DNA from: Actinomycetota bacterium
GTDB taxonomy: Bacteria > Actinomycetota > Actinomycetes > S36-B12 > CAIYMF01
Direction of reading: 5' to 3'
Length of the DNA stretch: 64,000 bases
Assembly (NCBI GenBank): GCA_026393115.1
Contig: JAPLAU010000008.1
Coordinates: forward strand, 124,001 to 188,000
The notes under the pieces were generated by a model that searched no databases, was not told where the DNA came from, and saw nothing but the letters and a program-made list of their open reading frames with translations. Positions 11,962-36,922 of the stretch are shown here, one piece after another. A program made the translations under genes and the position numbers. Numbering within the stretch: the stretch's first letter is position 1; every line of letters begins with the position of its first letter.

Positions 11962-13068
11962 ATGCTGAATCGAGATGACTACATCGCCACGGCCGAGGCG
12001 CTGCATGCGTGTGTTGAGGCGCGGGTGCCGGTGATTCTGTGGGGTCCACCTGGCCAAGGAAAGACGTCGGTCATTCGCGACCTTGCAGTGCGCCAGCAAC
12101 GTCACATTGAGATCTTGTTGGCGAGTATCCGCGAACCGCAAGACTTCGCCGGCCTTCCTTCCATCTACGACGGTGCCATGTCGCTCATTCCCCCGAACTG
12201 GGCGGCTCGACTACGCGACGATGGCAACGGCATTCTCTTCACCGACGAGGTCAACACCGCACCTCCCGCTGTTCAGGCCGCTCTTCTGCGTGTGTGTCTC
12301 GACAAGGTCGCCGGCGACTGCGAACTCGGCGAGCGCACGAGCATCATCGCCGCGGCGAATCCGCCCGAGCAGGCAGCCGATGGTTGGGATCTCGCGCCGC
12401 CTCTCGCCAACAGGTTCTGTCACCTCGACTGGTCGCTACCGAGTGACGTCGTCAGAGACGGTCTCGCGGGTCAGTGGCCTGTGATCGAAATGGCACCCGC
12501 GAAGCCCGCAGCCGTTGAGGCTGCACTCGGGCGAGAACGCATCATGGTTGCTGGTTTCCTCACTGGGCGGCCCGATCTGACCACCGTGCTTCCGAAAGCG
12601 ACCTCCGAGCAGGGCCGCGCGTTTCCAACGCCACGCTCGTGGGAGATGGCGATCACCGTGGGCGGCTGGTCGGAAGCGCTGGGCCTGGACGCCACGTCAC
12701 TGCGCATGTTGATTCGCGGCTGCGTGGGTCAGGGAGCATCAGCCGAGTACCTCACCTATCGCGACAACCTTGACTTGCCCGATCCTGAATCGCTGCTGGC
12801 AGCGCCCACGAAGTTCAAGCCACCTAAGCGGGCCGATCAGGTGTACGTGATCGGAGCTGGAGTACTCGCCGTCGTGCGTAACAACACCACCGAGGCGCGT
12901 TGGCACGCAGCCGGACAGGTGCTGGAGCGAATTGCGAGTGCAGGCAATCCGGATATTGCGGTCGCCTTTGCACGCGACTGGTTGAAGATGCGGCCCGGTG
13001 ACGCAATGCCCGATAGCGCGTTGCTGAAGGCGCTCATTCCATTGCTTCAGGAAGCGAAGATGATCTGA
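11962..13068 (+). CDS. MoxR-family AAA+ ATPase
   Basis: 368 residues. Walker A GPPGQGKTS (28-36), Walker B ILFTDEVN (91-98), a sensor-1 Asn in AAANPP (133) and an arginine in ANRF (151) identify a MoxR/RavA-type AAA+ ATPase. These hexameric ATPases remodel partner proteins and are usually paired with a VWA protein that acts as adaptor. Here the VWA gene starts 4 bp downstream, so the two form one unit. RBS GAGGGGGA. The divergent neighbour is the LigA-like ligase. Confidence 0.9.
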   Translation: MLNRDDYIATAEALHACVEARVPVILWGPPGQGKTSVIRDLAVRQQRHIEILLASIREPQDFAGLPSIYDGAMSLIPPNWAARLRDDGNGILFTDEVNTAPPAVQAALLRVCLDKVAGDCELGERTSIIAAANPPEQAADGWDLAPPLANRFCHLDWSLPSDVVRDGLAGQWPVIEMAPAKPAAVEAALGRERIMVAGFLTGRPDLTTVLPKATSEQGRAFPTPRSWEMAITVGGWSEALGLDATSLRMLIRGCVGQGASAEYLTYRDNLDLPDPESLLAAPTKFKPPKRADQVYVIGAGVLAVVRNNTTEARWHAAGQVLERIASAGNPDIAVAFARDWLKMRPGDAMPDSALLKALIPLLQEAKMI

Positions 13069-20015: not shown

Positions 20016-20429
20016 GTGGCTGATCCTTTTACTGCGTCAACCAGTGAGGGTGGGTCCGCCGACGCGTCGATATTTGGTCAATCTCCCGTACCGGCGGGAA
20101 GTAGCCCGCGTACAGCAAGTAAGCCGTCGCCGCTCCCGTTGATTGTCGCAATTGTGGCGCTCATTGCGTCAGTCGCCCTCGCCGTACTTTTCCGTGACTC
20201 CTTTCCGGCGGCGATTGTCGGTTATCTACTCACGCCCTTTGTTGTCGTCGGTTGCGTTGGGTGGGCCCGAGGCCGACATCTCAACCGTCTCCCCGATCTC
20301 TGGTACGACGGGCCGCAGGGTGCCAAGCAACTGACGATGCTTCAGATCACGTCTGCGGTCGCATTTTTGATTGGGTTCGCCCACATGTGGCGGATAGCGA
20401 CGGAGGTGGCGTCATCGTGGTTCGTCTAA
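20016..20429 (+). CDS. Small membrane protein, first gene of the VWA-tubulin operon
   Basis: 137 residues from GTG 20016 (GGGGGT 5 nt upstream). A Ser/Gly/Pro-rich cytoplasmic N-terminus of about 35 residues is followed by three hydrophobic segments (PLPLIVAIVALIASVALAVL; AAIVGYLLTPFVVVGCVGW; MLQITSAVAFLIGFAHMW). The loop after segment two has ARGRHLNRLPDLWYDG. The family is not recognised. Its last 13 bp overlap the start of the VWA gene, so the two are translationally coupled. Confidence 0.65.
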   Translation: MADPFTASTSEGGSADASIFGQSPVPAGSSPRTASKPSPLPLIVAIVALIASVALAVLFRDSFPAAIVGYLLTPFVVVGCVGWARGRHLNRLPDLWYDGPQGAKQLTMLQITSAVAFLIGFAHMWRIATEVASSWFV

Positions 20430-23245
20430 CGCGCTGGGTGTCACTTGCCGGTGCGGTTGCACTGGCAAGTGGTGTGGTGATGGCACCGGCGATGGCCGCG
20501 CCTCGTACTGAGATTGGCCCGGTGGGTCAAGAAGGACTCAAGGAAGTCGCACAGTGCTTGGCATCGAACCCGAACCTGCTGGCGATGATGGTGGTTGACG
20601 AAAGTGGATCGTTGCAATCAACGGATCCCGAGAACAAGCGGGCGGCGATTCTCGCCAGCGTCGTGACGTCGCTGGAAAGTCTCGCGCAGCAGTCGTTGCT
20701 CGGCCAGCCGCGTCGCGTCGACGTAGCAGTTGGCACCTTCTCCGCCGACTACACCCCGTGGATTCCATGGACAACGCTCACACCCCAAACCGCGCCTGAA
20801 TTGGCGGCCAAGATCGAGGCGGAAGTTCCAGCCCGTAATCAAGGAGGCGGGACCGACCACCCGTCGGCCATGGCGGGAGGGCGCTCGGAAATCGCGCGCG
20901 GCACCGCGCGATTCGGAACAGGTGCCCCGCCCTGCAAGCTCATGTTGATGTTTACCGACGGCGTCATCGTTGTTTCCGACGATCCTGTAAAGAATCAACA
21001 AGCGGCCGATGACATGTGCGCACGCAAGGGTGTTATCGATGGCATTCGCAGCGACAACATTTCGCTGGTCAACGTCATGCTCTTCGATCGTTCGACTCTC
21101 AAGCAGTACGACGCTGCTAGCCAGAAGGATCTGGTGAAAGGTACCCAACTACTTCAGGCAATGGCCGAAGGGACGGGAGGCGGCATTGAATGTGGAACGG
21201 TGCCGATCCCTGCGAACTATCGGAGCGGCCTCTACCTCGAAGGCAGTGCCGATGCGCTTGCCTCGCTTTTCGCCGCGGCCATTGCTATCGGCAGTGGTGG
21301 TACTCCGGTGCCTGACATCACCGGTACACCTGCGACTCTCGTGATCGATCCAGGAATCGCATCCTTCCGCGTCGTTGCCATTGCGCCCAAGGGGTTCTCG
21401 CTCAAGGCACCTGACGGAAGCACACTCGCGGGCAAGGTGGGGTCGGGTAACGGCGCGGCGGGTGGAAGCACTGCCATCGTCAACTGGACCGGATCAACCG
21501 TCACCATCAACATTCCCGTCAGCGCCTCGGGAGTTGGAAACTGGACGTTTGCTCGCCCTGGACAAGACGACGCAGTCGGGCTGTACCTTTTCAGCGATTT
21601 GCAGCTGCAACTCAAAGATGCGCAACTAGTTGCGGGGCAAGAGTCGACGCTCTCTGGGCACGTTGTCACAACTGAGGCCAAGCCGGCGAGTGTGTCGCCG
21701 TACAAAGACAGGAAGCTCGTCATCAAGGCTCTCAATGCGAAGGGTGAGGGCACCGAGGTTCCTTTGGCCTTGAAGGATGACGGATCGTTCAGTGGCACAT
21801 TCACCCCGACAGGCGGATCGACTTCGACGATCTTCGACGTGACCCTTGACCTCACTACCAAGAGCGGTCAGAAGTTGGCTCAGGTGAGCCGCCGATTCGT
21901 TCAACCGGTTCGACTGGCTGGTGCCTTCCCCACGGTCGCACCTGAGGCGCTGGTGCTCTCTCCACTTGAGGGGCGTGACGGTGAGGCGAAGGGCACAATC
22001 ACCTTTGTGGGTTCGAAGGAAGGACCCACTAAAGCGTGCGCCGCTGCCCCGCAGTTAACCGAAGTTGATGATCCCAACCGATTCAAAACCAGTGTGACTA
22101 CCGACTGCGTGACTCTGGCAGCCGGTGAGACGAAGACGATCGACGTGTCGATACGTAATCAACTGGAGCCGTCCGATGGTCAGGTGACCGGACAGATTCC
22201 GTTGACCCTCTCGAGTGCTGCCGTGAGTGGCCGCCCGTCAGCTGACGCACCGATCTCGCTACCACTCACGTTTGTGACGACGCGTCCGGTTAACCAGGCG
22301 GCGCGCATCGGCATCGTGTTGGTGTTGTTCATCCTCGGGATTCTGTTGCCGCTTCTTCTGCTGTGGCTGTTAAACCGCAGTGCGGCGCGCCTTTCACTCA
22401 AGGGTCTGCAGATGGCACGCATTCCGGTCACGGTTAATGGCGAGGGCGCCAACGCGACGATTTCACGCTCCGACGGTCAGTCGCTCCTGCTATCCCCCGA
22501 TGACTTCCGTTGGATGCCGGTTGATCCGCCGAGGCCGCGGCAGTGGTCGGGTGGGCCCGAGACGCTGCGCAGCATCACTCCGATCAATCCGTTCGGGTCT
22601 GTTCGTGCCGTTGTTCAGGCGCCGACTGGTCAGGTGGTGGTGGGCAGCGATTTGCCGACTACGTCGGATGCGGGTTCGAGTGCCGGGCTACCTCTCGACC
22701 CGACGGGGCAGTACTACCTCTTGGTGCCCTCGAGTGCGCTTGGTGCTCGTGAGCCGGTGACCGTTGGGCCCGTGGCCACGGGTGGCGATTCGATCTTCGG
22801 TGGTGGGGGTACATCAGGCCAGACGCCTCCGTTGTCGGGCGGTGGTGCGAGCGCCGGCGGTACGAACCCCTTCGATCCAGATAACCCCTTCGGATCAGTT
22901 CGAATGTCGATTGGTGAGGCGCCGCCTCCTAGCTCAGTTTCGGGCGTACTCGTCGCATACATCAAGCCGGAGTACGGCGGTAGCGGCCCAGTTGTTGAGC
23001 GACTGGTCGCCACCATCGGTGCGAGCACTTGCCTCGGTCGAGGGTTGATGGAGGCGAGGCAGGCGATTGGCGAACTCGCGCAGAAGCAGGCGAGTAAGGC
23101 CAAGCCGCCCAAGCCGCCGAAGGAGCCGAAGCAGCCCAAGGCCGGAACAACGACGGCACCTCCGCCGCCACCGTCGGCTGGTGGAAGCGGACCATTCGGT
23201 CAGTCCACTGGAAGTTCGAGTCCGGATGACAACCCGTTCAAGTAA
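20417..23245 (+). CDS. Secreted, membrane-anchored VWA protein with Pro/NPF-rich C-terminal tail
   Basis: 942 residues from GTG 20417 (GGAGG at 20402-20406). This start gives a clean signal peptide cut after AMA; the open frame back to 20252 is not used. The VWA domain follows: VVDESGS (MIDAS), FTDGVI. Several Ig-like beta domains then lead to a single membrane segment (IGIVLVLFILGILLPLLLLWLL), so the VWA part is outside and about 280 residues are inside. The inner tail is Pro/Gly-rich with four NPF motifs (NPFGSVR twice, NPFDPD, and NPFK at the C-terminus). It may link an outside signal or metal state to the tubulin-like protein encoded next. Confidence 0.8.
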   Translation: MVRLTRWVSLAGAVALASGVVMAPAMAAPRTEIGPVGQEGLKEVAQCLASNPNLLAMMVVDESGSLQSTDPENKRAAILASVVTSLESLAQQSLLGQPRRVDVAVGTFSADYTPWIPWTTLTPQTAPELAAKIEAEVPARNQGGGTDHPSAMAGGRSEIARGTARFGTGAPPCKLMLMFTDGVIVVSDDPVKNQQAADDMCARKGVIDGIRSDNISLVNVMLFDRSTLKQYDAASQKDLVKGTQLLQAMAEGTGGGIECGTVPIPANYRSGLYLEGSADALASLFAAAIAIGSGGTPVPDITGTPATLVIDPGIASFRVVAIAPKGFSLKAPDGSTLAGKVGSGNGAAGGSTAIVNWTGSTVTINIPVSASGVGNWTFARPGQDDAVGLYLFSDLQLQLKDAQLVAGQESTLSGHVVTTEAKPASVSPYKDRKLVIKALNAKGEGTEVPLALKDDGSFSGTFTPTGGSTSTIFDVTLDLTTKSGQKLAQVSRRFVQPVRLAGAFPTVAPEALVLSPLEGRDGEAKGTITFVGSKEGPTKACAAAPQLTEVDDPNRFKTSVTTDCVTLAAGETKTIDVSIRNQLEPSDGQVTGQIPLTLSSAAVSGRPSADAPISLPLTFVTTRPVNQAARIGIVLVLFILGILLPLLLLWLLNRSAARLSLKGLQMARIPVTVNGEGANATISRSDGQSLLLSPDDFRWMPVDPPRPRQWSGGPETLRSITPINPFGSVRAVVQAPTGQVVVGSDLPTTSDAGSSAGLPLDPTGQYYLLVPSSALGAREPVTVGPVATGGDSIFGGGGTSGQTPPLSGGGASAGGTNPFDPDNPFGSVRMSIGEAPPPSSVSGVLVAYIKPEYGGSGPVVERLVATIGASTCLGRGLMEARQAIGELAQKQASKAKPPKPPKEPKQPKAGTTTAPPPPPSAGGSGPFGQSTGSSSPDDNPFK

Positions 23246-23281
23246 TCGAAAAGTAGCCATTCACCAGCGAGGAGCGCGCAC

Positions 23282-26200
23282 ATGCTGAGCCAGGTTCTGT
23301 TGGTCGGCGTCGGAGGATCCGGCGGCAAGACTCTGCGTGTCCTACGCCAGACGCTGCTGCGCCGGTTACGCACGGCTGGGTGGACAAGCGACGAATTGCC
23401 CGATGCGTGGCAGATGCTGTGGGTCGACACCGTTAGCGGGATGTCGGCTGATGGGTTCCCCGAGAAGTTGCTGCCGCAGTCTGACTACCTAGGCCTTGTC
23501 TCGCACGGAATGAATTGGAGTGGCACGCTCTCAGCTCTGACGAACTCACTGTCTATCGAGGATCGACAGCGGGCACTTGCGTCGTGGGTGCCGACCTCCG
23601 TCCCAATCGATATCACTAATGGCGCTGGTCAGTTTCGTGCCATCGGTCGGGGGGTCGCACTCAATCGGCTCGATGCGATTACCGGCAAGCTCAAAGAGAA
23701 GTACCAGATCATGACGGCGCCGAAAGCAATGTCCGAATTGGCGGAGGTCGCTCGCCTCTTGGGTAGTGAAACAGAGGCTGCCGCTCGGCCCCCATTCGCG
23801 ATGGTGATTTCCTCCATGGCGGGTGGTTCTGGTGCCGGCATGTTCATTGATGTGGCTGAGGCTCTTAAAACGGTGGGACCTTCATTCGCCGCGAAGACTC
23901 ATACGATCATGTACGGACCCGATGTCTTTGGAAGTTTGCCAGCGGGCATGAGCAACGGTGTTGCTCCGAATGTGCTTGCGGCGCTTAATGAAATCACGTC
24001 ATGTGTCCGCAAGGAATCGATGGACGTAGGGAGTAAGGCACTCTTCGCGAGTCATGGATCAGATGTAAAGACAGGTGAGTACGGCATCGGGGGGCGTTAT
24101 CTTTACCTCATCGGCGCGCGCAATGGAAAGATCGCCTTCGGTAATCAAGAAGATGTGTACCGAGCCGTCGGAGAAGCTCTCGCTCCTATGGTCATCGACG
24201 ACGTCGTGCAGGAGTGGCTGAATGCGTTCGTCCTAACGAATGTATTTGATGCTTCAGGTGCCATCGTCACAGTCGAAGATGAAACGCAGTTAAGGGATAG
24301 CTCAAACGTGCAGCACCGGCAACCGTTGTCGTCATTGGGATTCGGTCGGGTTGGCCTTGGCATGGATCGCTTTGGAGAGTATGCAGCTGAGGTCTTGGCG
24401 AAGGAAACAATCGACAGGTTGCTGTGGCCGCGTGGTGTGCCGATGGACCCTCGCGAACCCAAGACCGAGGCCGAACACATCGTGGAGCGCTTGGACAACA
24501 CGTGGCTGGAGTTCCTGAACAAGTCGGGTCTTAATGAACGCGACCCCGCGAATGACGTGGTTGATGCTCTGGTGCCTGCAGATTCGGCGCAGCGCTTCCA
24601 GACGGCGGCGGTTGAGATGGTGCAGCGAGCCGGAGGAAATGCCGGTCAGGCAGGCCTTGACCCTCAGACGTGGTTCCATCAACTCACGGTCGAGTACACG
24701 AATGGGCTGCCAGCAGTGTTGGCGCGCGAGACCGATGAGCGGTACGTGTGTGCTCGCGAGTGGGCCAAGGGAATTCAAGAGCACCTCGTTGGTCACATCA
24801 CGGACGCGGTTTCAAAGCATGGCCTGAAAGTTGCAGCCAAGCTGATCGAGAAGCTGCGGGTTGAAGCGCGGGAAGTGGCGACCGGTGAACTCGCAACTCA
24901 GGCCAGTCGCGAACTCAGTTATCTCGATGCGATGAGCGGTGGAATTCAATCGCGGCTCAACACGGGTCTAACCGCGATTCCCGTCAATCACCCGGTGATT
25001 GACGAGGTACGTAATCTGCTGGTCAAGGGGATGGAACTGAATGCCAATTCGTCACGCTTCGAGTTGGCATCTAAGTTGCTTCTGGATCTCGATGACAACC
25101 TGCTTCAGGTGCTTCAAAGGGCAGTCGCGGAATCAGCTGCAGCACTCGAGTCTGACGTTTCGGCCACCGGTGCGGACGGGGCACCGAGCCCCTACGTGAC
25201 GTGGCCGGATATGGACGACACAGTAATCCCGAACCGATTGATTCCAGGGGTGACTGAACGCGTATTGGTCGAGGCCTCGGAGTATCAGGGACTGCTCGCG
25301 ACTCTAGCTCAACAGAGTGTGGGTCGAGCTCACTCGGGAGCCTGGGAACAGCGCCTCGTGAGTCGTACTGTGTCAGGCTTGCCTCTCGATGAACGTGGCG
25401 ACACGGCGCTGCCGAATCTCATCACCATGCGTCCGTCTTGGAACCCCCTTGATGATCGCGTTCGATGGGAGGCGAATACTTCGGCTCAACGTGCAGGTGC
25501 CAAAATCCCCACAGATGCGTCGCTTTATGTCGATCGGGCGCGCGAAACAATCGTTGACGACGATGTCACGATCCTCGGCAAGTTCATCAAACAGGACCTC
25601 GAAAGTTATTTGAAGACTCCGGATGTTTCGGAGGCGGCGAACCGCGAAGCGAAGTTTGCTGCCGCGCTCGGGGCCGCACTTCAGGCCAGTGGGCCGATGG
25701 CCGACATTCGCCCTGACCTGCTGGGTCTAGTTCACCCGAAGCAGACGGTTAGCTCTTACATGTCCGCCAGTACTTTGCCGCGTTCGCTGAAGTCGTTGAT
25801 CGATCCGGTTCTCGACAAGGCACAAACAGATCGAAGCGGAATCAAGTATGGCGACGTCAGGCCGCAGCAGCTCGACTTCTTCCAAGTGACTCACAAGGCC
25901 TATCACCCCGTCGTGTTTCGAACCCTGATGGATCCAATTGCTTCGAGTTGGGGCGAGGCTCGTACTAATGCTGCGTTGCGGGAGAGTTGGTGGCAGATGC
26001 GTCGCGGGCGTCCACTGACAGAGGCGATTCCCGCGACCGACGACGTGATTCTGCAGATGATCACGGGATGGTTTGTCGCGGGAATCATGGGGATTCGACG
26101 TACAACGACGCCGAATTCCTCTGGCGGGCCGATGGTCGAGGTCGCCGATGAGCGAGGGCAGTGGCTTGCATTCCCGCACCCGTTGCTCGGCTTCCGTAAG

Positions 26201-26641
26201 GGTGACAGCGATCACGAAATACTTCCATCAGTTCTCAAGTCACTCGGAATCGCAATCGCTCAGGTTGGCGTAAGTTCACCGGCAAGCCTTGACGCACTTG
26301 AACCGTATTGGCGCCTGCGGGATATGGGCGAAAATGCTGCTGCGGTCATTTCGCAGTGGGTGCGAACGGGCGCTACGCCATCACAGGGAATACTTCCTAA
26401 CCCCTCGACCGCCGCGTCCCCGGCGGAACCAGCAGAAGTTCGGAGGGAAGCGCTACTCAAATCTGTGGCCTTGGCGCGGGCGACCGTTGAGAAGATCTTC
26501 GCGGGCGTGGAGTCGAATCCCAATGAACTCAACACGCAGCGGATTTGGGAGTTACGCGTACAGATACTCGCCGCGCTTCAAGTAATTCACGATTCGGTTA
26601 GCCGTGCCGACGTCACTGAGGACACCACGGGGATCCTGTGA
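23282..26641 (+). CDS. Tubulin/FtsZ-like GTPase (Tubulin_2 type)
   Basis: 1119 residues. The Rossmann start LLVGVGGSGGKTLR (6-19) and the tubulin signature-like loop AGGSGAGMFID (180-190) mark a tubulin/FtsZ-superfamily GTPase domain; GAGQFRAIGRGVAL (114-127) is also typical of the large Tubulin_2 group. The long C-terminal region (about 400-1119) is mostly helical with no named domain. RBS GAGGAG. Expected to bind GTP and form filaments or a membrane-associated assembly with the VWA protein (FtsZ-like families of this kind have been linked to membrane remodelling). C-terminus EDTTGIL. Overlaps the next gene by 4 bp (GTGA). Confidence 0.8.
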   Translation: MLSQVLLVGVGGSGGKTLRVLRQTLLRRLRTAGWTSDELPDAWQMLWVDTVSGMSADGFPEKLLPQSDYLGLVSHGMNWSGTLSALTNSLSIEDRQRALASWVPTSVPIDITNGAGQFRAIGRGVALNRLDAITGKLKEKYQIMTAPKAMSELAEVARLLGSETEAAARPPFAMVISSMAGGSGAGMFIDVAEALKTVGPSFAAKTHTIMYGPDVFGSLPAGMSNGVAPNVLAALNEITSCVRKESMDVGSKALFASHGSDVKTGEYGIGGRYLYLIGARNGKIAFGNQEDVYRAVGEALAPMVIDDVVQEWLNAFVLTNVFDASGAIVTVEDETQLRDSSNVQHRQPLSSLGFGRVGLGMDRFGEYAAEVLAKETIDRLLWPRGVPMDPREPKTEAEHIVERLDNTWLEFLNKSGLNERDPANDVVDALVPADSAQRFQTAAVEMVQRAGGNAGQAGLDPQTWFHQLTVEYTNGLPAVLARETDERYVCAREWAKGIQEHLVGHITDAVSKHGLKVAAKLIEKLRVEAREVATGELATQASRELSYLDAMSGGIQSRLNTGLTAIPVNHPVIDEVRNLLVKGMELNANSSRFELASKLLLDLDDNLLQVLQRAVAESAAALESDVSATGADGAPSPYVTWPDMDDTVIPNRLIPGVTERVLVEASEYQGLLATLAQQSVGRAHSGAWEQRLVSRTVSGLPLDERGDTALPNLITMRPSWNPLDDRVRWEANTSAQRAGAKIPTDASLYVDRARETIVDDDVTILGKFIKQDLESYLKTPDVSEAANREAKFAAALGAALQASGPMADIRPDLLGLVHPKQTVSSYMSASTLPRSLKSLIDPVLDKAQTDRSGIKYGDVRPQQLDFFQVTHKAYHPVVFRTLMDPIASSWGEARTNAALRESWWQMRRGRPLTEAIPATDDVILQMITGWFVAGIMGIRRTTTPNSSGGPMVEVADERGQWLAFPHPLLGFRKGDSDHEILPSVLKSLGIAIAQVGVSSPASLDALEPYWRLRDMGENAAAVISQWVRTGATPSQGILPNPSTAASPAEPAEVRREALLKSVALARATVEKIFAGVESNPNELNTQRIWELRVQILAALQVIHDSVSRADVTEDTTGIL

Positions 26642-28725
26642 CCGACGAAATATGGTCCGAAGGCATTGTCCCCATCATTCTCTTGCCAGGGGAGCCGCGG
26701 GGTGGGCGACTGCTCGATCTCATCGAGCAGTGGACACGTTCGTGGTTGCTGGCCCCCGCGATGTGGATTCGGGTCGAGGACGTTCTCGACGAGAACGGCG
26801 ACTTCGCTGGTGCGACCACGGGGCGTCCACCTCGCGTCACCGGGCATGTCATCGGGCACAACGGGCGTCGTCGAGTCGACATATTCCGTGAGTTGGGGCG
26901 CGGAGAAGTGTCGATTCTGCGGATGCTCGTGGTGCGCTGGGTGGAGGATTCGGTTGATGCGGCGCAGCCGACGCATGATGAGCGCCAAGACCAAACCTTG
27001 GAAGTGCTGTCAGAATTCGTCAAGTTATCGCAGCCTCCCGAGCGTCATACGGCATTGGGTGAACCTGTGGGAACCCGCGTGGTTAAAGCGAACCTCGTGT
27101 TCGCCCCCACAAACCGATTGGGGGGGTCCCGACTGCACCTCCTTGAACGCAAATGGGACATCAACATCGTCGTCGCTCCAGAGGATCGACCGACGCCGTC
27201 ATCGTTCGATGCATTCACGCGCGACACTGACGAAGCACGAATGGATGCGTTCATTCTCGCAAATGTTGCGACGGCCGCCGGGCTGTGGCCGGGGCTCAAC
27301 AAGTCGGTGTATGAACTCGATACCGCTGACCTCAACGCGCGAGGTCGCGAAGTGTGTGTGGCTCAGCGAGTCAACGTACGCGCCGTTTTGAGCGACGCGC
27401 TCGCATTCCGTACTGCACAGAGGGCGCTTATCGACTCGGTGCGGGCCGAGTCGCCGCTGCTCGATCCACTCATTGCCAGCAACGTGTCGACTCTCGAAGT
27501 ACTCGATCCACTTGATAACGAAGAGGCTGTCAAACGCATGGTGGGTCTCACCATGAACATCGACAATGGTCGCCTAGGGTATCGTCGACGCGATCTGATT
27601 TCGTATCGCAAGACGTCGCGGGGAATGTGGGCTTCTTTCAAGGCATTCTTTGGATTCTTCTTCGACAAACTACTTGCCGTGCCCGGATGGATCTTTGACA
27701 TGATCACAACGTCGGCGAGTAAGAAGGCGACGGCCGCCCTGCATGGCGAGGAGGGGGCAGAGGAAGTCGATGCGTCGATTGATTTCGGTCGCTCACGATC
27801 GAGGCTCGACCGGCAGATTGGTCAGCAGGCTGAGCAACTGGAACTACGAAAAGAGCAGTTGCGTCGGCGGTTTGCGGAGCCGCTTCCTTTGAGTAAGCGC
27901 GATCTGGCACCCAAGATGTGGAGCGAGATTCGCACCCTCATTTTTTCGGTTCTCGATGGTTCGACCACTCCGGACCTGTTAAAGCCGGCACCACAGGTGA
28001 CTGGTGGAAGCGACGAACTTGCAATCCTTGGATCGCAGGGGCTCGCGACGCGCGCCACCGCTCCGGTTCGGAAAGGGAAGCGGAAGCAGCGCAACGAGAA
28101 CCCAACGCAGGCCGCTTCCTTCATGCCGGAGGCCACGCAAGCGGCACAGGCACGTGAAATCACGATGGTGTCTGAGCAGGGACATCCGAAGGTGATCGGC
28201 GACGTTGGTTTCGTTTGCCCCGACCCGAATGATCGGTGGGTAGCACCTGCGGGGGTTCTAATGACCTTTCGATCAACATCGACCCCTGACGATGGCGCGC
28301 AGTGGCTGAGCACGTCCGAGGCGGAGCGTTGGATTAGTGAGGTCGATAAGCGCATTGAGTTCACCGGGCAGCGCATCGCTGCGCAGTTGGAGTCTCTCCT
28401 GACGATCGAAACAGAGGTCGCGGAACAGGAGCAACTCCTCGAGGCGGCGGCGAGCGAGGTGTATGTTGCGGAGATCGAATACGAGTCTCTCGTGGAGGAA
28501 TCGGAGTACTCCGAACTCTCAGGAGATGATGACGAATCCCTCGCTCCTGTCGACGTTGTTCACAGTGACTCACTCGTCGTCGTCATTGACGACGAGCGTG
28601 AAGAGTTGGACGTCGACGAAGAAGGCGATCACGAGGACGGTGGTGCGGAAGTTGACGCCCACGAAACCAATGATCGCGATGAAGTGACTGTCGTGAAGGT
28701 GGGTGATTCGACCGATGTCGAATAG
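26638..28725 (+). CDS. Unknown cytoplasmic protein of the VWA-tubulin operon, acidic coiled-coil C-terminus
   Basis: 695 residues, GTG start overlapping the tubulin-like stop. No known family. The N-terminal half (to about 330) opens with a hydrophobic patch (GIVPIILLPGEP). A short hydrophobic amphipathic stretch near 336-360 (FKAFFGFFFDKLLAVPGWIF) may sit on the membrane. A basic region (RKGKRKQR) and a coiled coil (about 560-610) follow; the last 80 residues are very acidic (DDERE, DVDEEGDHEDGG). Probably an adaptor between the filament and the membrane; inference only. Confidence 0.6.
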   Translation: MTDEIWSEGIVPIILLPGEPRGGRLLDLIEQWTRSWLLAPAMWIRVEDVLDENGDFAGATTGRPPRVTGHVIGHNGRRRVDIFRELGRGEVSILRMLVVRWVEDSVDAAQPTHDERQDQTLEVLSEFVKLSQPPERHTALGEPVGTRVVKANLVFAPTNRLGGSRLHLLERKWDINIVVAPEDRPTPSSFDAFTRDTDEARMDAFILANVATAAGLWPGLNKSVYELDTADLNARGREVCVAQRVNVRAVLSDALAFRTAQRALIDSVRAESPLLDPLIASNVSTLEVLDPLDNEEAVKRMVGLTMNIDNGRLGYRRRDLISYRKTSRGMWASFKAFFGFFFDKLLAVPGWIFDMITTSASKKATAALHGEEGAEEVDASIDFGRSRSRLDRQIGQQAEQLELRKEQLRRRFAEPLPLSKRDLAPKMWSEIRTLIFSVLDGSTTPDLLKPAPQVTGGSDELAILGSQGLATRATAPVRKGKRKQRNENPTQAASFMPEATQAAQAREITMVSEQGHPKVIGDVGFVCPDPNDRWVAPAGVLMTFRSTSTPDDGAQWLSTSEAERWISEVDKRIEFTGQRIAAQLESLLTIETEVAEQEQLLEAAASEVYVAEIEYESLVEESEYSELSGDDDESLAPVDVVHSDSLVVVIDDEREELDVDEEGDHEDGGAEVDAHETNDRDEVTVVKVGDSTDVE

Positions 28726-30253
28726 CCCGATGCCGACTACTGTGTCGACGACACCGCTCGCACCACTCGATCGACGGGTCAAGGATGCGGCTACAGCCCT
28801 TCGTGATAGCGAAACCAAACTCACTCAGGTACAGAGGGAAGCTCAGGTTGCACAGCGTCGACTCGAGCGAGCCCGTGCTCGACTCGCAGAAGTCGAGACG
28901 GAAAAGGAAGCACTTGCTGCAGCCAAGAATGAGGCGAATGAATGGATTCGGCGTCGGTCGCGTTCGTATTCGTATCTCTTGATCAAGGAACTTGAAGGCG
29001 AACGCGATGCACTCGCGCAAGACGTTGGCTTCTGCCGACAGGTGATGGGCGAAGGAAGCCCCATTGATCAAGACAAACTGAGTGTGATGAGTCGACGTTT
29101 CGTAAGGAGATTGATCTGGGCGACAGCGATCGTGCTGATCATTCTTGCGATCATTCTGGGCGTGAAGTACGGCTCACAGCCATCTACCACCGCTTCGCTT
29201 CCCTTTGTGTCGTGGCCACTGTGGATGATCTTGCTTACTGCCTTCGTGGTGTGGTTACTCTTCGTTCTACGCATCATGTTCTCCTATCACCGCGATTGGT
29301 CTCAGCAAGTCGATCGACTCAGGCGCCATCAGCACGAAATCAACCACGTGTTCGAGTTACTGCCTCATACGCGTTCAGAATTTGTTCGACTACGAGATCT
29401 TCATCCTCAGGTTCAAGATCGGCTGGACCTCATTGCGGAGAGTTTGTATCGCCCGTGGATTATCGACTCACGGCTCGATATCGAAAGTGCAGATCCTCCA
29501 GTCGATTCAATGCCAGCGCTGATGCAGCTCGCGAGTGTTCCGCTCGGCCGTGGTGGGCGTAAAGAGGAGGAACTGCGTCGTAGGGCGATTGCCGAGTTCA
29601 TCATCAAGCCTGGCTGGAGAGCTGCCGCGTACGCGGGACTACTTCGGTGTGTTGAGGAGATAGAAGATCGCCCGGCAGGGACGCTGACGGCCGACGCTGT
29701 TGACCAGAGCCCCGTGGCGCTCGCGGCGGTTCGTGCATCGCTGCAGTCGCCTGACTCACGAGTGCTCAATGCACGGTTGCGGCAGGCAGAGGTGGCGCTT
29801 GATGTACAACGGCGCATCATCCCTGATGTTCATCCTCTCGTTGCCTCGCTTCGACCGGATGAACTGGCTGATTTGGATGTTCGCACTGAGTTGGTGACGG
29901 ATCCCAATGCCGACCTGACGGAATGGGATGACTTCCTGGTCCGGATCTTGGGTGCAGGGACTTCCTGGTCGCCAGCGGTATTTACGGAGATTGGCCGTTC
30001 GCGTGGTGTTTCCGGAGCGCCTCGTGCGTTCGCCTTTGGCCCTAAGCGACTTCAAGGACGGCAGAACGCTGAGGTCACCTACGGACCGCTGCCCGATGCC
30101 GGTACTCGGCCGCTCGATCTTCTCGTGCGCGTCGATGTCTCGGGCTGGTGTTCACCGGAGGACTTGATGGTGTTCTCGACCGTTGAATCCAGCCAGGTGC
30201 AAGTTGCCGTTGCCGCCGACGATGACCTCGCTGACCCAACCGGCATCCTCTAG
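28715..30253 (+). CDS. Membrane coiled-coil protein of the VWA-tubulin operon
   Basis: 512 residues from ATG 28715 (AAGGTGGG upstream), overlapping the preceding gene by 11 bp. An N-terminal coiled coil (about 20-95; rich in Arg, Glu, Ala) precedes two membrane segments (LIWATAIVLIILAIILGV and PLWMILLTAFVVWLLFVLRI), then a long cytoplasmic helical and globular part. The family is not recognised. It ends DDDLADPTGIL, the same last four residues as the tubulin-like protein. It is the last gene of the operon. Likely a membrane anchor or ring component. Confidence 0.65.
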   Translation: MSNSPMPTTVSTTPLAPLDRRVKDAATALRDSETKLTQVQREAQVAQRRLERARARLAEVETEKEALAAAKNEANEWIRRRSRSYSYLLIKELEGERDALAQDVGFCRQVMGEGSPIDQDKLSVMSRRFVRRLIWATAIVLIILAIILGVKYGSQPSTTASLPFVSWPLWMILLTAFVVWLLFVLRIMFSYHRDWSQQVDRLRRHQHEINHVFELLPHTRSEFVRLRDLHPQVQDRLDLIAESLYRPWIIDSRLDIESADPPVDSMPALMQLASVPLGRGGRKEEELRRRAIAEFIIKPGWRAAAYAGLLRCVEEIEDRPAGTLTADAVDQSPVALAAVRASLQSPDSRVLNARLRQAEVALDVQRRIIPDVHPLVASLRPDELADLDVRTELVTDPNADLTEWDDFLVRILGAGTSWSPAVFTEIGRSRGVSGAPRAFAFGPKRLQGRQNAEVTYGPLPDAGTRPLDLLVRVDVSGWCSPEDLMVFSTVESSQVQVAVAADDDLADPTGIL

Positions 30254-30292: not shown

Positions 30293-31510
30293 CTACTCGC
30301 AAACTCGTCCGTCGTGGTCTGCGTCGCGATACCAGTCATATTCGGGGTTGACGCCGGAGATGTAGGGCCCGTATCCGGCCGACTTCGCTGCCTTACAAGT
30401 GCGGAATTGTGGGTCGAGTTGGCCGCTCAAAGAGCCTGAAGTTCCGCCGGTGTCTGTGGGGGTGGGTGTCGGTTTCGGTGTAGCAGGTGTGGGTGCCGTC
30501 GCCGCGAATGCGGAGGCAACGGCTGCGGCCGGTGCGATGATTCCCTGTGTACCGGGGTCGGGAAGGTCAGTGCCGTCACAGCGTTTCAACTGCTTAAGCA
30601 TGGCCGTCTTCTCGGCTGGCGTGATCCAGAGTCCGTATTTCGTCTTTACTGCGATGATTCGCGCCACATAGTCGCAGCGGTAGGCGGGGTTGGGCGGCAA
30701 CCACGATGCAACGTCGCTATCGCTCTTGGACTGATTGACGCCCGCCAACGTCGGTTGCAAATTAAGCGGATCATTGGCGAAGGCGAGTCGCTGCGCCGGA
30801 GCCCATTTCTGAGCGCCCTTTTGCCACGCATCGGAAAGCGCCACGATGTGGTCCACGTCAATGCCGACTGCTGTGTCGAACGGAATGCTGACGTCGGTGT
30901 AGTTGTCGTGCAGGGTCCCACTGATCACGGTGCAGTTAGCTTCAGCGGTGGCACCAATCAGGGTTGCGGCTAAGACGTCATCGCGGGTGTCACAGCCGTT
31001 TCCGTCAACGTCGGCCCATGCGGCTCCGAAAAGTGCTCGTGAGTATCCGGTCTTGGGCGCGCGACCTTTGACGGGAAGTGCGTCGAGTGCGAGCAAGAGC
31101 GCAGCGCTTGCACCGGCAGCACCCGTGGATGTCTCAGCTGGAGTCGGAGTTGGAGCCGAAGACGGGGCGAGTGACTCGGCACTGGGAGTGACCCAGTTGG
31201 GAGTGGGTGACACGAGTGAGGGATCAGGCGGCAACGAGGGACTAGCGACTTGGTTGGCAGGCTTGCCTCCAAGCGTTGAGAACAACAGCGCAAGTAGCAC
31301 CGCGCCAACAGTGACTCCAGCCTTGATCTTGGTCGAGGTCCCGGGCCGCATCCACAACAGAATGATTCCGGGGATCAGGCAGAGGAACAGTCCCACGATG
31401 ATCGCCGGCCAACTCGTGAGCCACGATCGAGAGGGTGCAGGGACAGGTTCCCAGGTGCTGCCATTCCAATAGCGCTGGCGACCGCTTCCTACGTGGCTGC
31501 CCCTAAGCAC
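30293..31510 (-). CDS. Membrane-tethered/secreted HNH nuclease (DUF2510 + DUF1524 + excalibur)
   Basis: 405 residues, GTG start inside the end of the helicase gene. A DUF2510-like N-terminus (RQRYWNGSTWEP) is followed by two hydrophobic segments (about 33-52 and 62-80), a Pro/Ser/Thr linker, and a DUF1524/GmrSD-C HNH nuclease: DGNGCDTRDDVL, GIDVDHIVALSDAWQKGA, NDPLNLQPTLAGVNQSKSD. A second Pro/Thr linker leads to an excalibur calcium-binding motif (DADHDGRVCE). Nuclease and calcium motif are probably outside the cell. It shares 22 bp with the upstream helicase gene, an odd pairing of a secreted with a cytoplasmic enzyme. Confidence 0.85.
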   Translation of the reverse strand: MLRGSHVGSGRQRYWNGSTWEPVPAPSRSWLTSWPAIIVGLFLCLIPGIILLWMRPGTSTKIKAGVTVGAVLLALLFSTLGGKPANQVASPSLPPDPSLVSPTPNWVTPSAESLAPSSAPTPTPAETSTGAAGASAALLLALDALPVKGRAPKTGYSRALFGAAWADVDGNGCDTRDDVLAATLIGATAEANCTVISGTLHDNYTDVSIPFDTAVGIDVDHIVALSDAWQKGAQKWAPAQRLAFANDPLNLQPTLAGVNQSKSDSDVASWLPPNPAYRCDYVARIIAVKTKYGLWITPAEKTAMLKQLKRCDGTDLPDPGTQGIIAPAAAVASAFAATAPTPATPKPTPTPTDTGGTSGSLSGQLDPQFRTCKAAKSAGYGPYISGVNPEYDWYRDADHDGRVCE

Positions 31511-34479
31511 AGGAATGGCGCGGCGCCGATGTCGTCCGATGGTGACTCGCGTGCGAACAGAACCACGTGCGAGCCGCGTTCCTCGTGATTGAGGTAGCGC
31601 TCGCCTGTCGGCGAAGTGATCCGCGTCGCGTTCTGTGACTCCCAGTGGAAGAGTTCGGGTGAGACCGCGTAGTCGCGGTACATGGTGCTCGGAGAGAAGT
31701 CGCGTTCACTCTTGCGCAGGTTGATCATGAGGGCGTCGATACCGCTCTCTTGCGCCCACGCAACGCCGGTTGCTTGACCACGAACCATTCGATCCCATGA
31801 GGCCCAGCCGATGCCGGCAAGAATCTCCTCGCGTCGGTAGTGGGCGTGACTCAGTATCGGCGCCTGCTGCATCCCCTCACCTAGTGATCGAGGCACAAGC
31901 CGAGCGCGATCAACCCTCAACTCCATCACGTCTCGTAGTTCAGCACAGGCTGCAGGATGACGACGCAAGTGAGCAAAGCCGTCTTCCCACGATTCGAAGT
32001 GACTCTTGCTGGGCCAAACAGTGAAGAACAACATCCGGGCCAAAATCTGTTGGCGCTCGGAGAGTTCGTCGTACGGGGGCGCTTCATCAGACATCAATTC
32101 GATGTACGCGTTGGCGCGCTCACGATCATCGACATGAATCAGAGTCGAGATGCGCTTGAGCAACGCTTCCTCGTCTGGGCCTTCGGGCAATGTTGGAAAA
32201 CCTGCGGCCCGCCTCAGCGCTGTCCACGAACCGTTGTTGCGGTAGATATCGGCGAGTTCGCGGCCTGACTGTTCTAGATAGTCGCCGAGCGAGATGTCCC
32301 CGTAGGAACGTAGATCGACGGCGAGCGCTCCGCGATTGAGCCGCAACTGGTGACGCACGTTCTCGAGCACTATCTGCTTGGCGACGCGGTCGAGCACAAT
32401 CTGGGAGCCCGAAGGAAGGAAAGGAAAGCCCTTCTCGATGTCACGTTCGAGGGCCGCGCGTGTTGAGCCGGTGAGTGCTCGGAATCGGGTATCGAAGCGG
32501 TATTCCTTTCGATGTTGACCGATGAAATCGAGAACGGTGAGGACCGCCTTGCCTGCATCACGGCGAAGTCCGCGGCCTAGTTGCTGCAGAAAGACCGTTG
32601 CACTCTGAGTGGGGCGCAGGAACAACACGGTGTCGACCATCGGAAGGTCAAGGCCCTCATTGAAGAGGTCAGCCGCGAAGAGGATGTTGACGGTGCCATC
32701 GCGTAACTGCTGCAACGAATCCGCCCGCTCGACTGAGGGAGTCTCACCGGACACTGCGAGCGCGCGAATTCCTGCCTCGTTGAACTTGCGAGCCATGTAA
32801 TGCGCGTGCGCCACCGATACGCAGAATCCCAAAGCGTGCATTGTGTGTACGTCGGTGACTTTGTCGATGACTTCACGCAAGACCTTCGCGGTGCGTGCAT
32901 CGTTGCCGGTGTAGACCTTGTCGAGGCCGACAATGTCGTAGGCACCTCGCTTCCATTCGATGCCTGAAAGATCAGTGTCGTCGGCCAGGCCGAAGTAGTG
33001 AAACGGCACGAGAAGGTCGTCAGCCAACGCATCCCACAGGCGAATTTCGTATGCGGTGCGGCCATCAAAGAATTGCCGCACATCAACGCCGTCTGCTCGT
33101 TCGGGCGTGGCGGTAAGGCCCAAGAGTTCACGGGGTTGAATGTGGTGGAGGAGCCGCTGGTAAGTGGACGCTTCAGCGTGATGGAACTCGTCGATGACGA
33201 CTATGTCGAAGTGATCAGCGGGGATGCGTTCTGGCCCGTATGCCGATAACGATTGGATACTCGCGAATACGTGTCGCCATTGCTCGGGCCTCTCACCCCC
33301 GACGTAAAGCTCGCCGAATGCGCCGTCGGCTAGTACCTCGCGATAAGTGCGCAGCGATTGTTGGAGGATCTCTTTGCGATGAGCGACGAAGAGAAGTGTT
33401 GGTCTTCCCCCCGCAACCGCACTGGCAAGACGCCGATAGTCCAGCGCAGCGACCACCGTCTTACCGGTACCGGTAGCGGCGACCACCAAGTTGGAATGAC
33501 GGCCGTGCACTTCTCGCTCAGACTCAAGCGCCTCCAGTATCTGCTCTTGGTGTGGAAAGGGCCGCACAGTGAGTCCGGACAGGGAGAGTGTGCGACTGCC
33601 GGTGGTCCCTGATCCCGCTCGGGCGAGCGCTGCCGCGAGTTTGTCGCCACCGGTGTCGGGGTTGTAGGTCTCGAATGCCGAGTCGTTCCAGTAGGTGTCG
33701 AAGGTCGCTGCGAACTTGCGGATGAGGTCTGGAGTGGCAATTCCGGATAGTCGAACATTCCACTCGAGGCCGTCGACAAGAGCCGCTCGTGACAAGTTCG
33801 AACTGCCGACGAATGCCGTGTCGAAGCCCGACTCGCGCCGAAACAGCCAGGCCTTGGCATGCAGGCGTGTGGACTGGGTTTCGTAGGTGATGCGAACCTC
33901 GGCTCCGAATCGGCGAACGAGTTCATCTATGGCGCGCTTCTCGGTCGCACCGATGTACGTGGTGGTGATGACGCGAAACGGCACGCCCCTCTCGGCGACT
34001 TCGAGCAGTTGTTGTTCGAGAACACGTAGTCCGTGCCAGCGGATGAATGCGCAAAGGAGGTCTACTCGATCGGCACTGGCGAGTTCGGTACGTAGTTCTG
34101 CACCCAGCCCAGGCTCTTCAGGTGCGTTTGTCATGAGTGCCGCTTGCGAAAGCGGCGTGAGTGGTCGGACAACGGCGTGAACGCCGGGTGCCACCTCTCG
34201 CGTCAGCGCGACGAGCTGCTCGAGGCGCTCTGTCAGTTGATCCTCGGGTGATTCGAGCAATGCGAGCAACTCGTTCACCAGACGGATGCGCGCGCCTTCG
34301 TCTGCGGTCTCCACGAGGGCCCGGCGAACAACGTCAGCGATGTGCCGGGAGAGAACGTCTGGAGCGACAGTGGAGTCGATGTTCTCGAACCGTGGTCTTA
34401 GGAGTGCACCTTCGAGGGACGCCTCAAGTCCGGCCGTTCGGAGCGACTCGTACACGCCCGCCGGCAGATTCCCCGTCAC
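31489..34479 (-). CDS. PLD-nuclease/SF2 helicase fusion (DUF3427-type)
   Basis: 996 residues, GTG start. The N-terminal phospholipase D-like nuclease carries RLHAKAWLF (HxK) and VGSSNLSRAAL. The SF2 helicase core shows AATGTGKTV (motif I), VIDEFHHA (motif II), GLTATPERADG (motif III) and QQLGRGLRR (motif VI). A C-terminal DUF3427-like region follows, with IGWASWDR. Such fusions are common in restriction and defence islands and act on DNA with ATP. Upstream in the same direction is a MazG-like gene (74-bp gap). Confidence 0.88.
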   Translation of the reverse strand: MTGNLPAGVYESLRTAGLEASLEGALLRPRFENIDSTVAPDVLSRHIADVVRRALVETADEGARIRLVNELLALLESPEDQLTERLEQLVALTREVAPGVHAVVRPLTPLSQAALMTNAPEEPGLGAELRTELASADRVDLLCAFIRWHGLRVLEQQLLEVAERGVPFRVITTTYIGATEKRAIDELVRRFGAEVRITYETQSTRLHAKAWLFRRESGFDTAFVGSSNLSRAALVDGLEWNVRLSGIATPDLIRKFAATFDTYWNDSAFETYNPDTGGDKLAAALARAGSGTTGSRTLSLSGLTVRPFPHQEQILEALESEREVHGRHSNLVVAATGTGKTVVAALDYRRLASAVAGGRPTLLFVAHRKEILQQSLRTYREVLADGAFGELYVGGERPEQWRHVFASIQSLSAYGPERIPADHFDIVVIDEFHHAEASTYQRLLHHIQPRELLGLTATPERADGVDVRQFFDGRTAYEIRLWDALADDLLVPFHYFGLADDTDLSGIEWKRGAYDIVGLDKVYTGNDARTAKVLREVIDKVTDVHTMHALGFCVSVAHAHYMARKFNEAGIRALAVSGETPSVERADSLQQLRDGTVNILFAADLFNEGLDLPMVDTVLFLRPTQSATVFLQQLGRGLRRDAGKAVLTVLDFIGQHRKEYRFDTRFRALTGSTRAALERDIEKGFPFLPSGSQIVLDRVAKQIVLENVRHQLRLNRGALAVDLRSYGDISLGDYLEQSGRELADIYRNNGSWTALRRAAGFPTLPEGPDEEALLKRISTLIHVDDRERANAYIELMSDEAPPYDELSERQQILARMLFFTVWPSKSHFESWEDGFAHLRRHPAACAELRDVMELRVDRARLVPRSLGEGMQQAPILSHAHYRREEILAGIGWASWDRMVRGQATGVAWAQESGIDALMINLRKSERDFSPSTMYRDYAVSPELFHWESQNATRITSPTGERYLNHEERGSHVVLFARESPSDDIGAAPFLCLGAAT

Positions 34480-34553
34480 TCTTGCGAGCTTGCCAGGTCA
34501 AGTCGAGTGCGTCCAGGAGTCAGGAGCAAAGACGAACCGTCAGTTGGTGATCG

Positions 34554-34901
34554 CTACCTCTTCTCTGGCGCCTTGTCGAAGACCTCGTTGGCGGGGAACC
34601 TTTCGTCGGCTGCCGCAAGTTTGGCGCGTGCTGCGGTACCCAAATCGATGTCCAAGACATCTGCCAGTCGCACCAAGTAGATCAAGACATCGGAGAGCTC
34701 TTCCGCGACTCGGCCGCGACGCGGCTCGGCGGAAAGCAGTGAACGAGCTTCGTCAGCTGGAACCCACTGGAGCAGTTCGGCAAGCTCGCCCACTTCGCCA
34801 ACGAGTGCCAGCGCGAGGGACTTCGGATCGTGAAACTGTTCCCACCCGCGATCCGACGTAAATCGGCGCATCTGGTCACGAAGTTCGATGAGGTCAGACA
34901 T
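34554..34901 (-). CDS. MazG-like dNTP pyrophosphohydrolase
   Basis: 115 residues. LALALVGEVGELAELLQW and the EELSDVLIYLVRLADVLDI helix are the metal-binding EExx(E)/ExxD signatures of the RS21-C6/MazG-like group, which hydrolyse (d)NTPs such as dCTP. The start ATG follows CACAGT by 6 nt on the minus strand, the leaderless geometry. It precedes the PLD-helicase gene. NTP pyrophosphohydrolases in defence islands can deplete nucleotides or remove signal nucleotides. Confidence 0.85.
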   Translation of the reverse strand: MSDLIELRDQMRRFTSDRGWEQFHDPKSLALALVGEVGELAELLQWVPADEARSLLSAEPRRGRVAEELSDVLIYLVRLADVLDIDLGTAARAKLAAADERFPANEVFDKAPEKR

Positions 34902-34913
34902 GTCAGGACTGTG
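34902..34913 (-). promoter_or_regulatory. Leaderless -10 element of the MazG-like gene
   Basis: Minus-strand CACAGT, then 6 nt (cctgac), then ATG at 34901. Weak hexamer, but the A2/T6 bases and the spacing match the others. Confidence 0.4.
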
Positions 34914-35053
34914 TCACACACGCCTAGTTGTTGTCTCCTGTCCGTCTCCTTTGGCTAGTGTGGGCACTACAAGCGGCCCGACGGACTTTCGCACGTTGCG
35001 TTCGAACATGTCCCCACCCGCACGCTGTTGCCGTGCGCCGGGGGATATTCCGA

Positions 35054-36922
35054 ATGGCCCTCTTACGACTATCCGCGGACTCCCTTGCTACCGAGTCGCA
35101 GTCGGAGAGCGTTGTGGAGCAATTGATGGAGCAGATGCTCTTCAGGCATAGTCGGCGGCCCGCTGATGGCGAAGTAAGGTCGTGGCGCCGAAGTCTTCCT
35201 GTCCTTGCGCGCGAACTTGTCGATGCGGGTCTTGGTGAGGTGGAAGTTCTTGTGGAGCACCAACTTCCATTGACCAGTAAGCGAGTCGACGCGTTGCTAG
35301 CGGGCTACCACCCGAAGACAGGGGAGCCGTCGTATGTGTTAGTTGAGTTGAAGCAGTGGAGCGAGGCTGAACTATTCGAAGGAGAGCCGGAACTAGTCCG
35401 CATCGACGCCTACGGAAAGCGCCCCGTCCTTCATCCTGTCGCGCAGGTTCGAGGCTACTGCGAATACCTCGTTGACTTCATGCCCGCGCTCGCCGACGTA
35501 CCAGAACGAGTAAGCGGAGTGGCGTACTTGCATAACGCCACCGAGCACGGTATCTCGGACTTGCGCGCCATGGGCGAATCAAGCTTTGGATCGCTGTACA
35601 CGGCTGAACGGCGAGCCGACTTTCATTCCTATTTACGGGGTCGGCTCGACCCCAACCGATCAGGCGCCTCCTCGGCAGATGAGTTGCTCGCGATGAAGAT
35701 TGGGCCGAGTCGTCAGTTACTGGCTGTTGCTGCTGACGAGATTCAATCCCGCGAGATGTTTGTTCTCATTGCGGAGCAGCGCGCTGCATTCAGATCTGTC
35801 CTACACGCCGTTGAGAGAGCCCGCGCGGGTGACAGCAAACGAGTCATCGTCGTCAGTGGCGGACCAGGATCGGGAAAGAGTGTTATCGCGCTCTCGCTCC
35901 TTGGCGAACTCGCGCGTCAGGGGCGATCCGTTTTGCACGCCACGGGTTCGCGTTCATTCACGCAGACTCTGCGCAAGGTGGCAGGCAGGGGATCTCCTCG
36001 AATCCGAAAGATGTTCGGCTACTTCAATCAATTCATGGATGCCGACCGCAATGGGCTCGATGTACTCATCTGCGATGAGGCGCATCGCATTCGCGAAACC
36101 TCAGCTGATCGGTATACGAAGGCCGCGCTACGCACGGGACGACTTCAGGTGGACGAACTGATTGCGGCTGCTCGCGTGCCCGTCTTCCTTCTGGATGAGC
36201 ATCAGGTGGTGCGACCAGGCGAGATGGGTTCGTTGGCTGAGATCACTGGCCATGCCGAGGGGCTCGGACTCGAGGTCCAGCACATTAGCCTCGATGAACA
36301 GTTTCGGTGTGGAGGCTCCGAGGCCTATGTCACTTGGGTGCAGCGACTTCTCGGCCTACTCCCAGGCGGACCCGTTAGTTGGCAGGGTGCTCCATCCTTC
36401 GATGTGAGGGTGGTCGATTCTCCGGGAGAGATGGTTGGCGCGTTGGAACTCGAACGCACGGGAGGCTACGGGGCGCGCATCACAGCCGGCTACTGCTGGC
36501 CGTGGAGTGACCCGCTTTCGGATGGGACGTTGGTGCAGGACGTTGTCATCGCCGGGTGGTCGCGACCATGGAATCTCAAGGGTGATCGAGCGACTGGTGG
36601 CGCGCCTCCATCGGCGCTCTGGGCAACCGATCCGGCTGGGTTCGGCCAAGTTGGTTGTGTCTACACGGCACAAGGTTTCGAGTACGACTGGAATGGGGTC
36701 ATTTTGGGTCCGGACCTCGTGTGGCGGACTGACCGCTGGAGCGCGCGCAGGAAAGAGAATCGGGACCCTGATTTTAGAAACAGCACGCGTGTGCCAGATG
36801 AGGAATTCGACGCTCTCATTCGCAACGTATACAAAGTGCTGTTGACGCGAGGGATGATTGGAACGCTCATTCATTCCGTCGATGATGAAACGCAGACGTT
36901 TCTCCGAGGTCTCGTCGGTTAG
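35054..36922 (+). CDS. Nuclease-DUF2075 helicase fusion
   Basis: 622 residues from ATG 35054 (GGGGGA at 35040-35045); the frame back to 34928 lacks coding character. The N-terminal part has a PD-(D/E)XK-like core: VDALLAGYHP then YVLVELKQWS (D-x(n)-E-x-K). The DUF2075 (Schlafen-group-like) P-loop ATPase follows: VVSGGPGSGKSV, LICDEAHRIRE, FLLDEHQVV, DEQFRCGG, and near the C-terminus YTAQGFEYDWNGVILGPDL. Predicted to cut and unwind or move on nucleic acid. It diverges from the MazG/helicase operon. Likely defence; substrate unknown. Confidence 0.85.
   Translation: MALLRLSADSLATESQSESVVEQLMEQMLFRHSRRPADGEVRSWRRSLPVLARELVDAGLGEVEVLVEHQLPLTSKRVDALLAGYHPKTGEPSYVLVELKQWSEAELFEGEPELVRIDAYGKRPVLHPVAQVRGYCEYLVDFMPALADVPERVSGVAYLHNATEHGISDLRAMGESSFGSLYTAERRADFHSYLRGRLDPNRSGASSADELLAMKIGPSRQLLAVAADEIQSREMFVLIAEQRAAFRSVLHAVERARAGDSKRVIVVSGGPGSGKSVIALSLLGELARQGRSVLHATGSRSFTQTLRKVAGRGSPRIRKMFGYFNQFMDADRNGLDVLICDEAHRIRETSADRYTKAALRTGRLQVDELIAAARVPVFLLDEHQVVRPGEMGSLAEITGHAEGLGLEVQHISLDEQFRCGGSEAYVTWVQRLLGLLPGGPVSWQGAPSFDVRVVDSPGEMVGALELERTGGYGARITAGYCWPWSDPLSDGTLVQDVVIAGWSRPWNLKGDRATGGAPPSALWATDPAGFGQVGCVYTAQGFEYDWNGVILGPDLVWRTDRWSARRKENRDPDFRNSTRVPDEEFDALIRNVYKVLLTRGMIGTLIHSVDDETQTFLRGLVG

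Follow-up and report, generated by a model that had tools for sequence, protein, structure and literature searches.

Tubulin-like proteins of the FtsZl1 family are encoded in operons together with a vWA membrane protein and other transmembrane (TM) proteins, and the products of these operons were predicted to form a membrane-associated complex (Makarova and Koonin 2010, PMC2875224). Although FtsZl1/Tubulin_2 operons have thus been known since 2010, the published accounts consulted offer only predictions of their function. The window (the whole 64,000-nucleotide stretch of DNA analyzed here) contains an operon of this type, in which the tubulin-like protein (hereafter T) matches Pfam Tubulin_2 (PF13809) with 125 bits against a cut-off of 27, and the membrane protein (hereafter VWA) matches vWA (PF00092) with 25.1 bits against a cut-off of 23.8. 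However, the main text of the FtsZl1 description (PMC2875224) does not contain the word 'tail', and gives no account of common tails or of a peptide code linking T with a partner protein (hereafter P). In the actinobacterial tubulin theme of the GAP1-N2 GTPase-centered conflict systems, a membrane-bound vWA protein likewise shares a neighborhood with a tubulin that has a C-terminal helical domain; the phrase 'C-terminal tail' is absent from the main text of that description (PMC7159879). Unlike in these systems, no GAP1-N2 match was found in the window genome (G000, about 95% complete) or in the same-genus genome G001.

In eukaryotes, EEY/F tails are carried by alpha-tubulin, EB proteins, and CLIP-170, and are read by CAP-Gly domains, while CLIP-170, according to the sections consulted, folds back through its own EEY/F-type tail (PMC11782662). 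The operon in the window resembles this system in that a tubulin and a coiled-coil partner have the same acidic-hydrophobic residues at their C-termini, a likeness of logic and not of descent. In contrast to the EEY/F system, the bacterial tails drift between lineages and the partner P is a membrane protein, and scans of the operon proteins encoded in the window and on a Rhodococcus plasmid detected no CAP-Gly domain. The C-terminal peptide of FtsZ and the C-terminal tip of SSB are short acidic-hydrophobic hub peptides on flexible linkers, each placed on one protein and bound by many readers. The tails of T and P are likewise short, acidic-hydrophobic, and C-terminal, but they are carried by two proteins. 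A limited search of open-license papers returned no report of common tails in FtsZl1-type operons. The joint change of both tails into many different matching sequences in related bacteria points to an undescribed, putative docking tag common to a tubulin-like protein and its membrane partner.

Organization of the operon

The operon (about 20016-30253, plus strand) encodes, in order, a small TM protein, VWA, T, and two further proteins, P1 and P2. The small TM protein (20016-20429, plus strand), located upstream of VWA, has relatives in the same position in most operons and shows a weak EccD-like TM match under the cut-off. VWA (20387-23245, plus strand) has the C-terminus DDNPFK, and a VWA homologue lies directly upstream of T in 73 of the 76 operons of the first set (see below). 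T (23282-26641, plus strand; 1119 aa) is composed of the Tubulin_2 domain (residues 6-377) and a long C-terminal region, and harbors a GxGGxG motif; GTP binding and filament formation would be expected of a member of the family. No solved structure is related to T at E 0.01, and viral contigs yielded one weak relative. The structure model of T, built from 2 sequences, has a mean pLDDT of 31, too low to be of use, and that of P2 (mean pLDDT 48) contains the coiled coil and TM helices only.

In most relatives, P is a single protein of ~900 aa encoded directly downstream of T. Profile searches identified P1 (26638-28725, plus strand; 695 aa, soluble) and P2 (28715-30253, plus strand; 512 aa, or 516 aa from a start at 28703) as the N-terminal and C-terminal halves of P, with residues 147-443 of P1 and 33-365 of P2 covered by the matches. 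P2 contains a coiled coil, two TM helices, and a C-terminal region with the tail, which we infer to be on the cytoplasmic side because the TM helices have basic flanks. Among the 49 operons with P, the protein is split only in the window and in L091, and in both cases the second piece carries the tail resembling that of T. Thus, P1, located between T and P2, ends in GDSTDVE and has no such tail, because P is split and the tail sits on the second piece. Homologues of P1 and P2 occur together in the same 49 of 76 operons. In four operons where no P was detected (L099, L100, L101, and L105), the product of the gene following T has an acidic stretch plus LW at its C-terminus (EEDDLW, EENDLW, ESELW, and EEDLW), and T has no such tail.

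Downstream of the operon, a GmrSD_C/Excalibur protein comes next within a possible defence region (window 30293-36922), in which PADLOC matches one protein very strongly as a type IV restriction enzyme (mREase_IV, 1180 bits) and another more weakly (PDC-S41).

A common TGIL end in T and P2

The first-pass annotation of the window noted that T and P2, though unrelated, share the terminal residues TGIL with an acidic residue just before them, and each of these observations holds. T ends in TEDTTGIL (EDTTGIL plus stop, 26618-26641, plus strand) and P2 in LADPTGIL (ADPTGIL plus stop, 30230-30253, plus strand), D occupies position -5 in both, and no homology is found between the two proteins (E 0.92). 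The TGIL codons (ACG GGG ATC CTG TGA in T; ACC GGC ATC CTC TAG in P2) show three synonymous differences. Among 990 pairs of window genes, T/P2 is the only one with four common C-terminal residues, the next best having two, and none of 1,120 gene pairs in the same-locus background has three or more.

EDTTGIL ends all three T C-termini available in the genus (window, and contigs C253 and C322 of G001), with different residues just upstream in each; T of C253 is 90% identical overall to T of the window, and T of C322 is 77% identical over the piece present. The sole piece of P2 found in G001 spans residues 11-63, upstream of the tail. Contigs C253, C181, and C322 (L002, L017, and L018) seemingly represent two operon versions in this genome, one with 90-97% and the other with 77% identity to the window across the available pieces; either a second copy or a mixture of strains may account for this. 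Conservation of the tail in orthologues, on which the first-pass proposal depended, is seen for TGIL within the genus only; however, the likeness of the T and P tails persists further out, and it is this likeness, not TGIL as such, that is the conserved trait. Elsewhere in the window, a 201-aa protein (6651-7256, minus strand), which may be TerD-type, has the acidic tail DDDDLDFEMF with F as its last residue.

Co-variation of T and P tails across lineages

Whole-genome searches for T or PF13809 covered relatives, the phylum, class, and order, then the genus of G674 (main genus), where 45 of 151 genomes were positive. This genus is probably Corynebacterium, because the named control C. glutamicum also matches. 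Of its T-bearing genomes, 41 were used (G835, G881, G813, and G808 were left out), and the Rhodococcus plasmid was also included. Gene calling relied on a codon model for which T itself was the training sequence, giving a first set of 76 operons, 49 with a P homologue and 27 without a detected complete P; the L160 operon is cut by a contig end. Tails were scored with BLOSUM62, ungapped, over the last 8 residues, and the null was obtained by permuting P tails among operons, separately inside and outside the main genus. N values are operons left once those with similar T had been dereplicated.

Within an operon, the T and P tails match far better than after re-pairing (N=45, z=10.9, 0/20,000 permutations), both in the main genus (N=36, z=9.9, 0/20,000) and outside it (N=9, z=4.6, 1/20,000), and also under the strictest dereplication (N=29, z=8.4). 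A similar value is obtained for T versus the first downstream gene with no homology filter (N=61, z=10.8), which is null at offsets of 8, 16, and 24 residues, as is the comparison of T with the second or third downstream gene or with the upstream gene. In operons without P, the matching is not significant (N=18, z=1.7, 1,077/20,000). The motif itself varies by lineage, including TGIL, DREFL, LPGxGEF, MPGEDLF, DLDxTF, FGxGF, and GLV. The T/P tails are TGIL/TGIL in the window, DEREFL/TDREFL in L109, VDTGV/YDSGI in L087, GDPLI/ANDLI in L089, DLFGSGF/RFFGEGF in L112, LPGEGEF/LPGTGEF in L143, MPGEDLF/MPGEDLF in L150, MPGLD/LPGLD in L157, DLDDTF/DLDETF in L161 and its relatives, GGLV/DGLV in L175, and GLM/GLM in L169. 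Identity exceeds permutation at positions -1 (33/45 vs 12.3) and -2 (35 vs 7.5) and also at -4, -5, -6, and -8, with a weaker excess at -3 (16 vs 12.3) and -7 (7 vs 3.4), and is at background from -9 to -12.

In favor of gene conversion, T and P of G938 carry tails that are identical in DNA over 21 bases. However, of the 185 tail positions where T and P agree in amino acid, 92 have identical codons versus 88.3 expected from codon usage, which speaks against DNA copying, while the permutation tests speak against chance and the E value of 0.92 between T and P2 against their shared ancestry. An origin of the matching from any of these three causes is therefore barely credible, and selection on the protein is its simplest cause.

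The last residue is hydrophobic in 42/45 T and 40/45 P proteins versus 19/122 other operon proteins, and the T and P tails are enriched in acidic and depleted in basic residues. PDZ ligands end in a hydrophobic residue, and most of these ends agree with the first-pass proposal that the receptor of the tails is perhaps a PDZ domain like the one at 14490. However, R, G, D, or N is the last residue in some of the matching pairs, and of 276 sources scanned for a relative of the domain at 14490 (mostly 2-19 kb around the operon, a distant genomic copy being possible), only the window matched, making binding by a PDZ domain of this kind highly improbable.

Within the genomes searched, the motifs mark essentially only T and P. 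DLD[DE]TF followed by a stop has 16 matches in 8 genomes, two in each and all 16 at T and P, and PGxGEF followed by a stop has 17 matches in 8 genomes, 15 of them at T or P. The two stray PGxGEF matches end no convincing gene, as L193 ends a 157-aa frame overlapping longer frames, and none of the six longest frames at L194 terminates at the match. In the window genome, TGIL followed by a stop occurs at T, at P2, and at a third place (L191), at which none of the six longest reading frames terminates, and two other TGIL matches are followed by TGG, not by a stop. Hydrophobic C-terminal ends can be degrons, and the tails had accordingly been considered possible degradation or processing signals. 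However, a general protease would not force paired changes in just two genes to which the motif is essentially confined; such a signal is an unneeded assumption that fits the lineage-specific co-variation poorly, and we regard it as improbable. Of the original docking-signal proposal, the common signal is strongly supported, because the tails co-vary across lineages, while the PDZ receptor and the processing signal are not.

Second operon set and exceptions

For a second set, T was found in 49 genomes, of which 10 had already been used and one (G1132) has a broken T; the other 38 were taken together with G665, giving 39 operons new to the analysis, all with a P homologue. Across all 39, the matching is weaker (z=3.4, 9/10,000) and null at upstream offsets, and the signal comes from the four new main-genus operons, all of which match (scores 33, 12, 35, and 34). 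For the 35 operons outside the main genus, anchored scoring reveals no pair-specific match (z -0.3 to -0.8), and a gapped local score is at most suggestive (z 0.8 to 1.8). One of them, L275, has the tails APRI/APRV, and in the rest T and P tails are alike as a class, often with P, then G, then a final hydrophobic residue. In 25 operons of the second set, the mean tail-tail similarity is 18.7 versus 12.1 and 13.7 for tail-upstream comparisons. When the own P was compared with the P of the nearest relative having a different T tail, it won 36 times, lost 9, and tied 4, the operons not being independent. No P tail matching T is present in L167, L171, and L173.

Weak signals arise elsewhere in a local-alignment test, namely for the tails of P and VWA (z=2.8-3.1), T and P at positions -32 to -16 (z=2.0-2.3), and the P tail with the N-terminus of the small TM protein (z=2.3-3.0); the first two of these are null in the anchored test. 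DPF, NPF, PFG, or FGS motifs recur both at the C-terminus of VWA and at the N-terminus of the small TM protein (window 20016-23245; L092 and L143-L182). A motif common to these two ends reaches z=3.0 when all operons are taken (N=46); with only those from outside the main genus (N=16), z is -0.2, and the motif is not claimed here. Similar ends were also seen in pairs involving VWA proteins. In L019 (G050), VWA (1242-4055) ends in DDDLPF and another protein of that operon (10434-11414) in GDDLPF, a second pair of common tails, which resembles the SSB C-terminal tip. In L076 (G721), VWA (3769-6855) has FDPFA, and a nearby small protein of the RDD family on the opposite strand (7555-8085) has NDPFS, and in L091 (G415), VWA (10316-12991) has KNDDW, and a nearby small protein on the opposite strand (13676-14122) has GHDNW.

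A putative common pocket for the two tails

Because the last 8 residues of non-homologous proteins track each other, one surface is likely to see both tails, and co-varying tails would imply a common binding pocket for T and P. We consider it probable that the shared tail is a co-selected docking peptide on T and P, read by one putative pocket within the T/P complex. In this scheme, the tails of T and P2 would be cytoplasmic ends bound by one and the same pocket; as the pocket drifts, both peptides would change along with it, leaving each lineage with its own matching pair. The tails would link T assemblies to the membrane-anchored coiled-coil protein, and the copy on P would either compete with T for the pocket, thereby acting as a brake, or add valence to a membrane-bound T array.

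GAP1-N2, which regulates the related GTPase systems and is present in 5 of 12 genomes searched, was considered as a reader and rejected, since it was not found in the genomes of seven lineages that bear the operon (G000, G001, G050, G415, G316, G660, and G343; G050 is 70% complete). Given its absence, the remaining readers are T, P1/P2, VWA, the small TM protein, or a host protein. A co-evolution scan of 31 main-genus operons, which has little power, gave its highest-scoring window in the T C-terminal region (0.417), not separated from the third gene (0.415), and a lower best window for VWA (0.339). The position of a VWA homologue just upstream of T in nearly all operons (73/76) would suit a reader in the cytoplasmic domain of VWA; however, its score in this low-power scan is the lower one, and the paired drift favors a dedicated, co-inherited reader. 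Reading by VWA, by the small TM protein, or by a host protein is on balance unlikely.

The C-terminal tails of TubZ and PhuZ bind neighboring subunits. By analogy, the pocket may be located on the body of T, such that T tails would bind neighboring T subunits and the P tail, as a mimic of the T tail, would cap the polymer or tether it. Every operon contains T (the set was selected for it) and the top co-evolution window falls in the C-terminal region of T, but the third gene scores nearly equally, and tail matching is not significant where T occurs and P is missing. A pocket on T is thus a possibility that we rank below the one on P, though above VWA or a host protein. The putative pocket inside the complex would most likely lie in the soluble N-terminal half of P (P1 in the window) and next on the T body; the half of P is favored because P1 and P2 co-occur in 49 of 76 operons and no significant matching is seen without P.

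The many natural tail pairs are ready reagents for locating the reader, and the pattern itself, with tails alike within operons and different between them, suggests a general route to docking peptides. More tentatively, actinobacterial tubulin-like GTPases may possess a rapidly drifting, lineage-specific code in their C-terminal tails. Its reader would be a new peptide-binding domain located in the soluble half of the membrane partner, whose own tail copy may serve as a brake. Such a code would form an independent counterpart of the EEY/F tails of tubulin and CLIP-170, in an operon that may be related to the predicted conflict systems. If true, this would constitute an independent case of the tail logic of eukaryotic tubulin.
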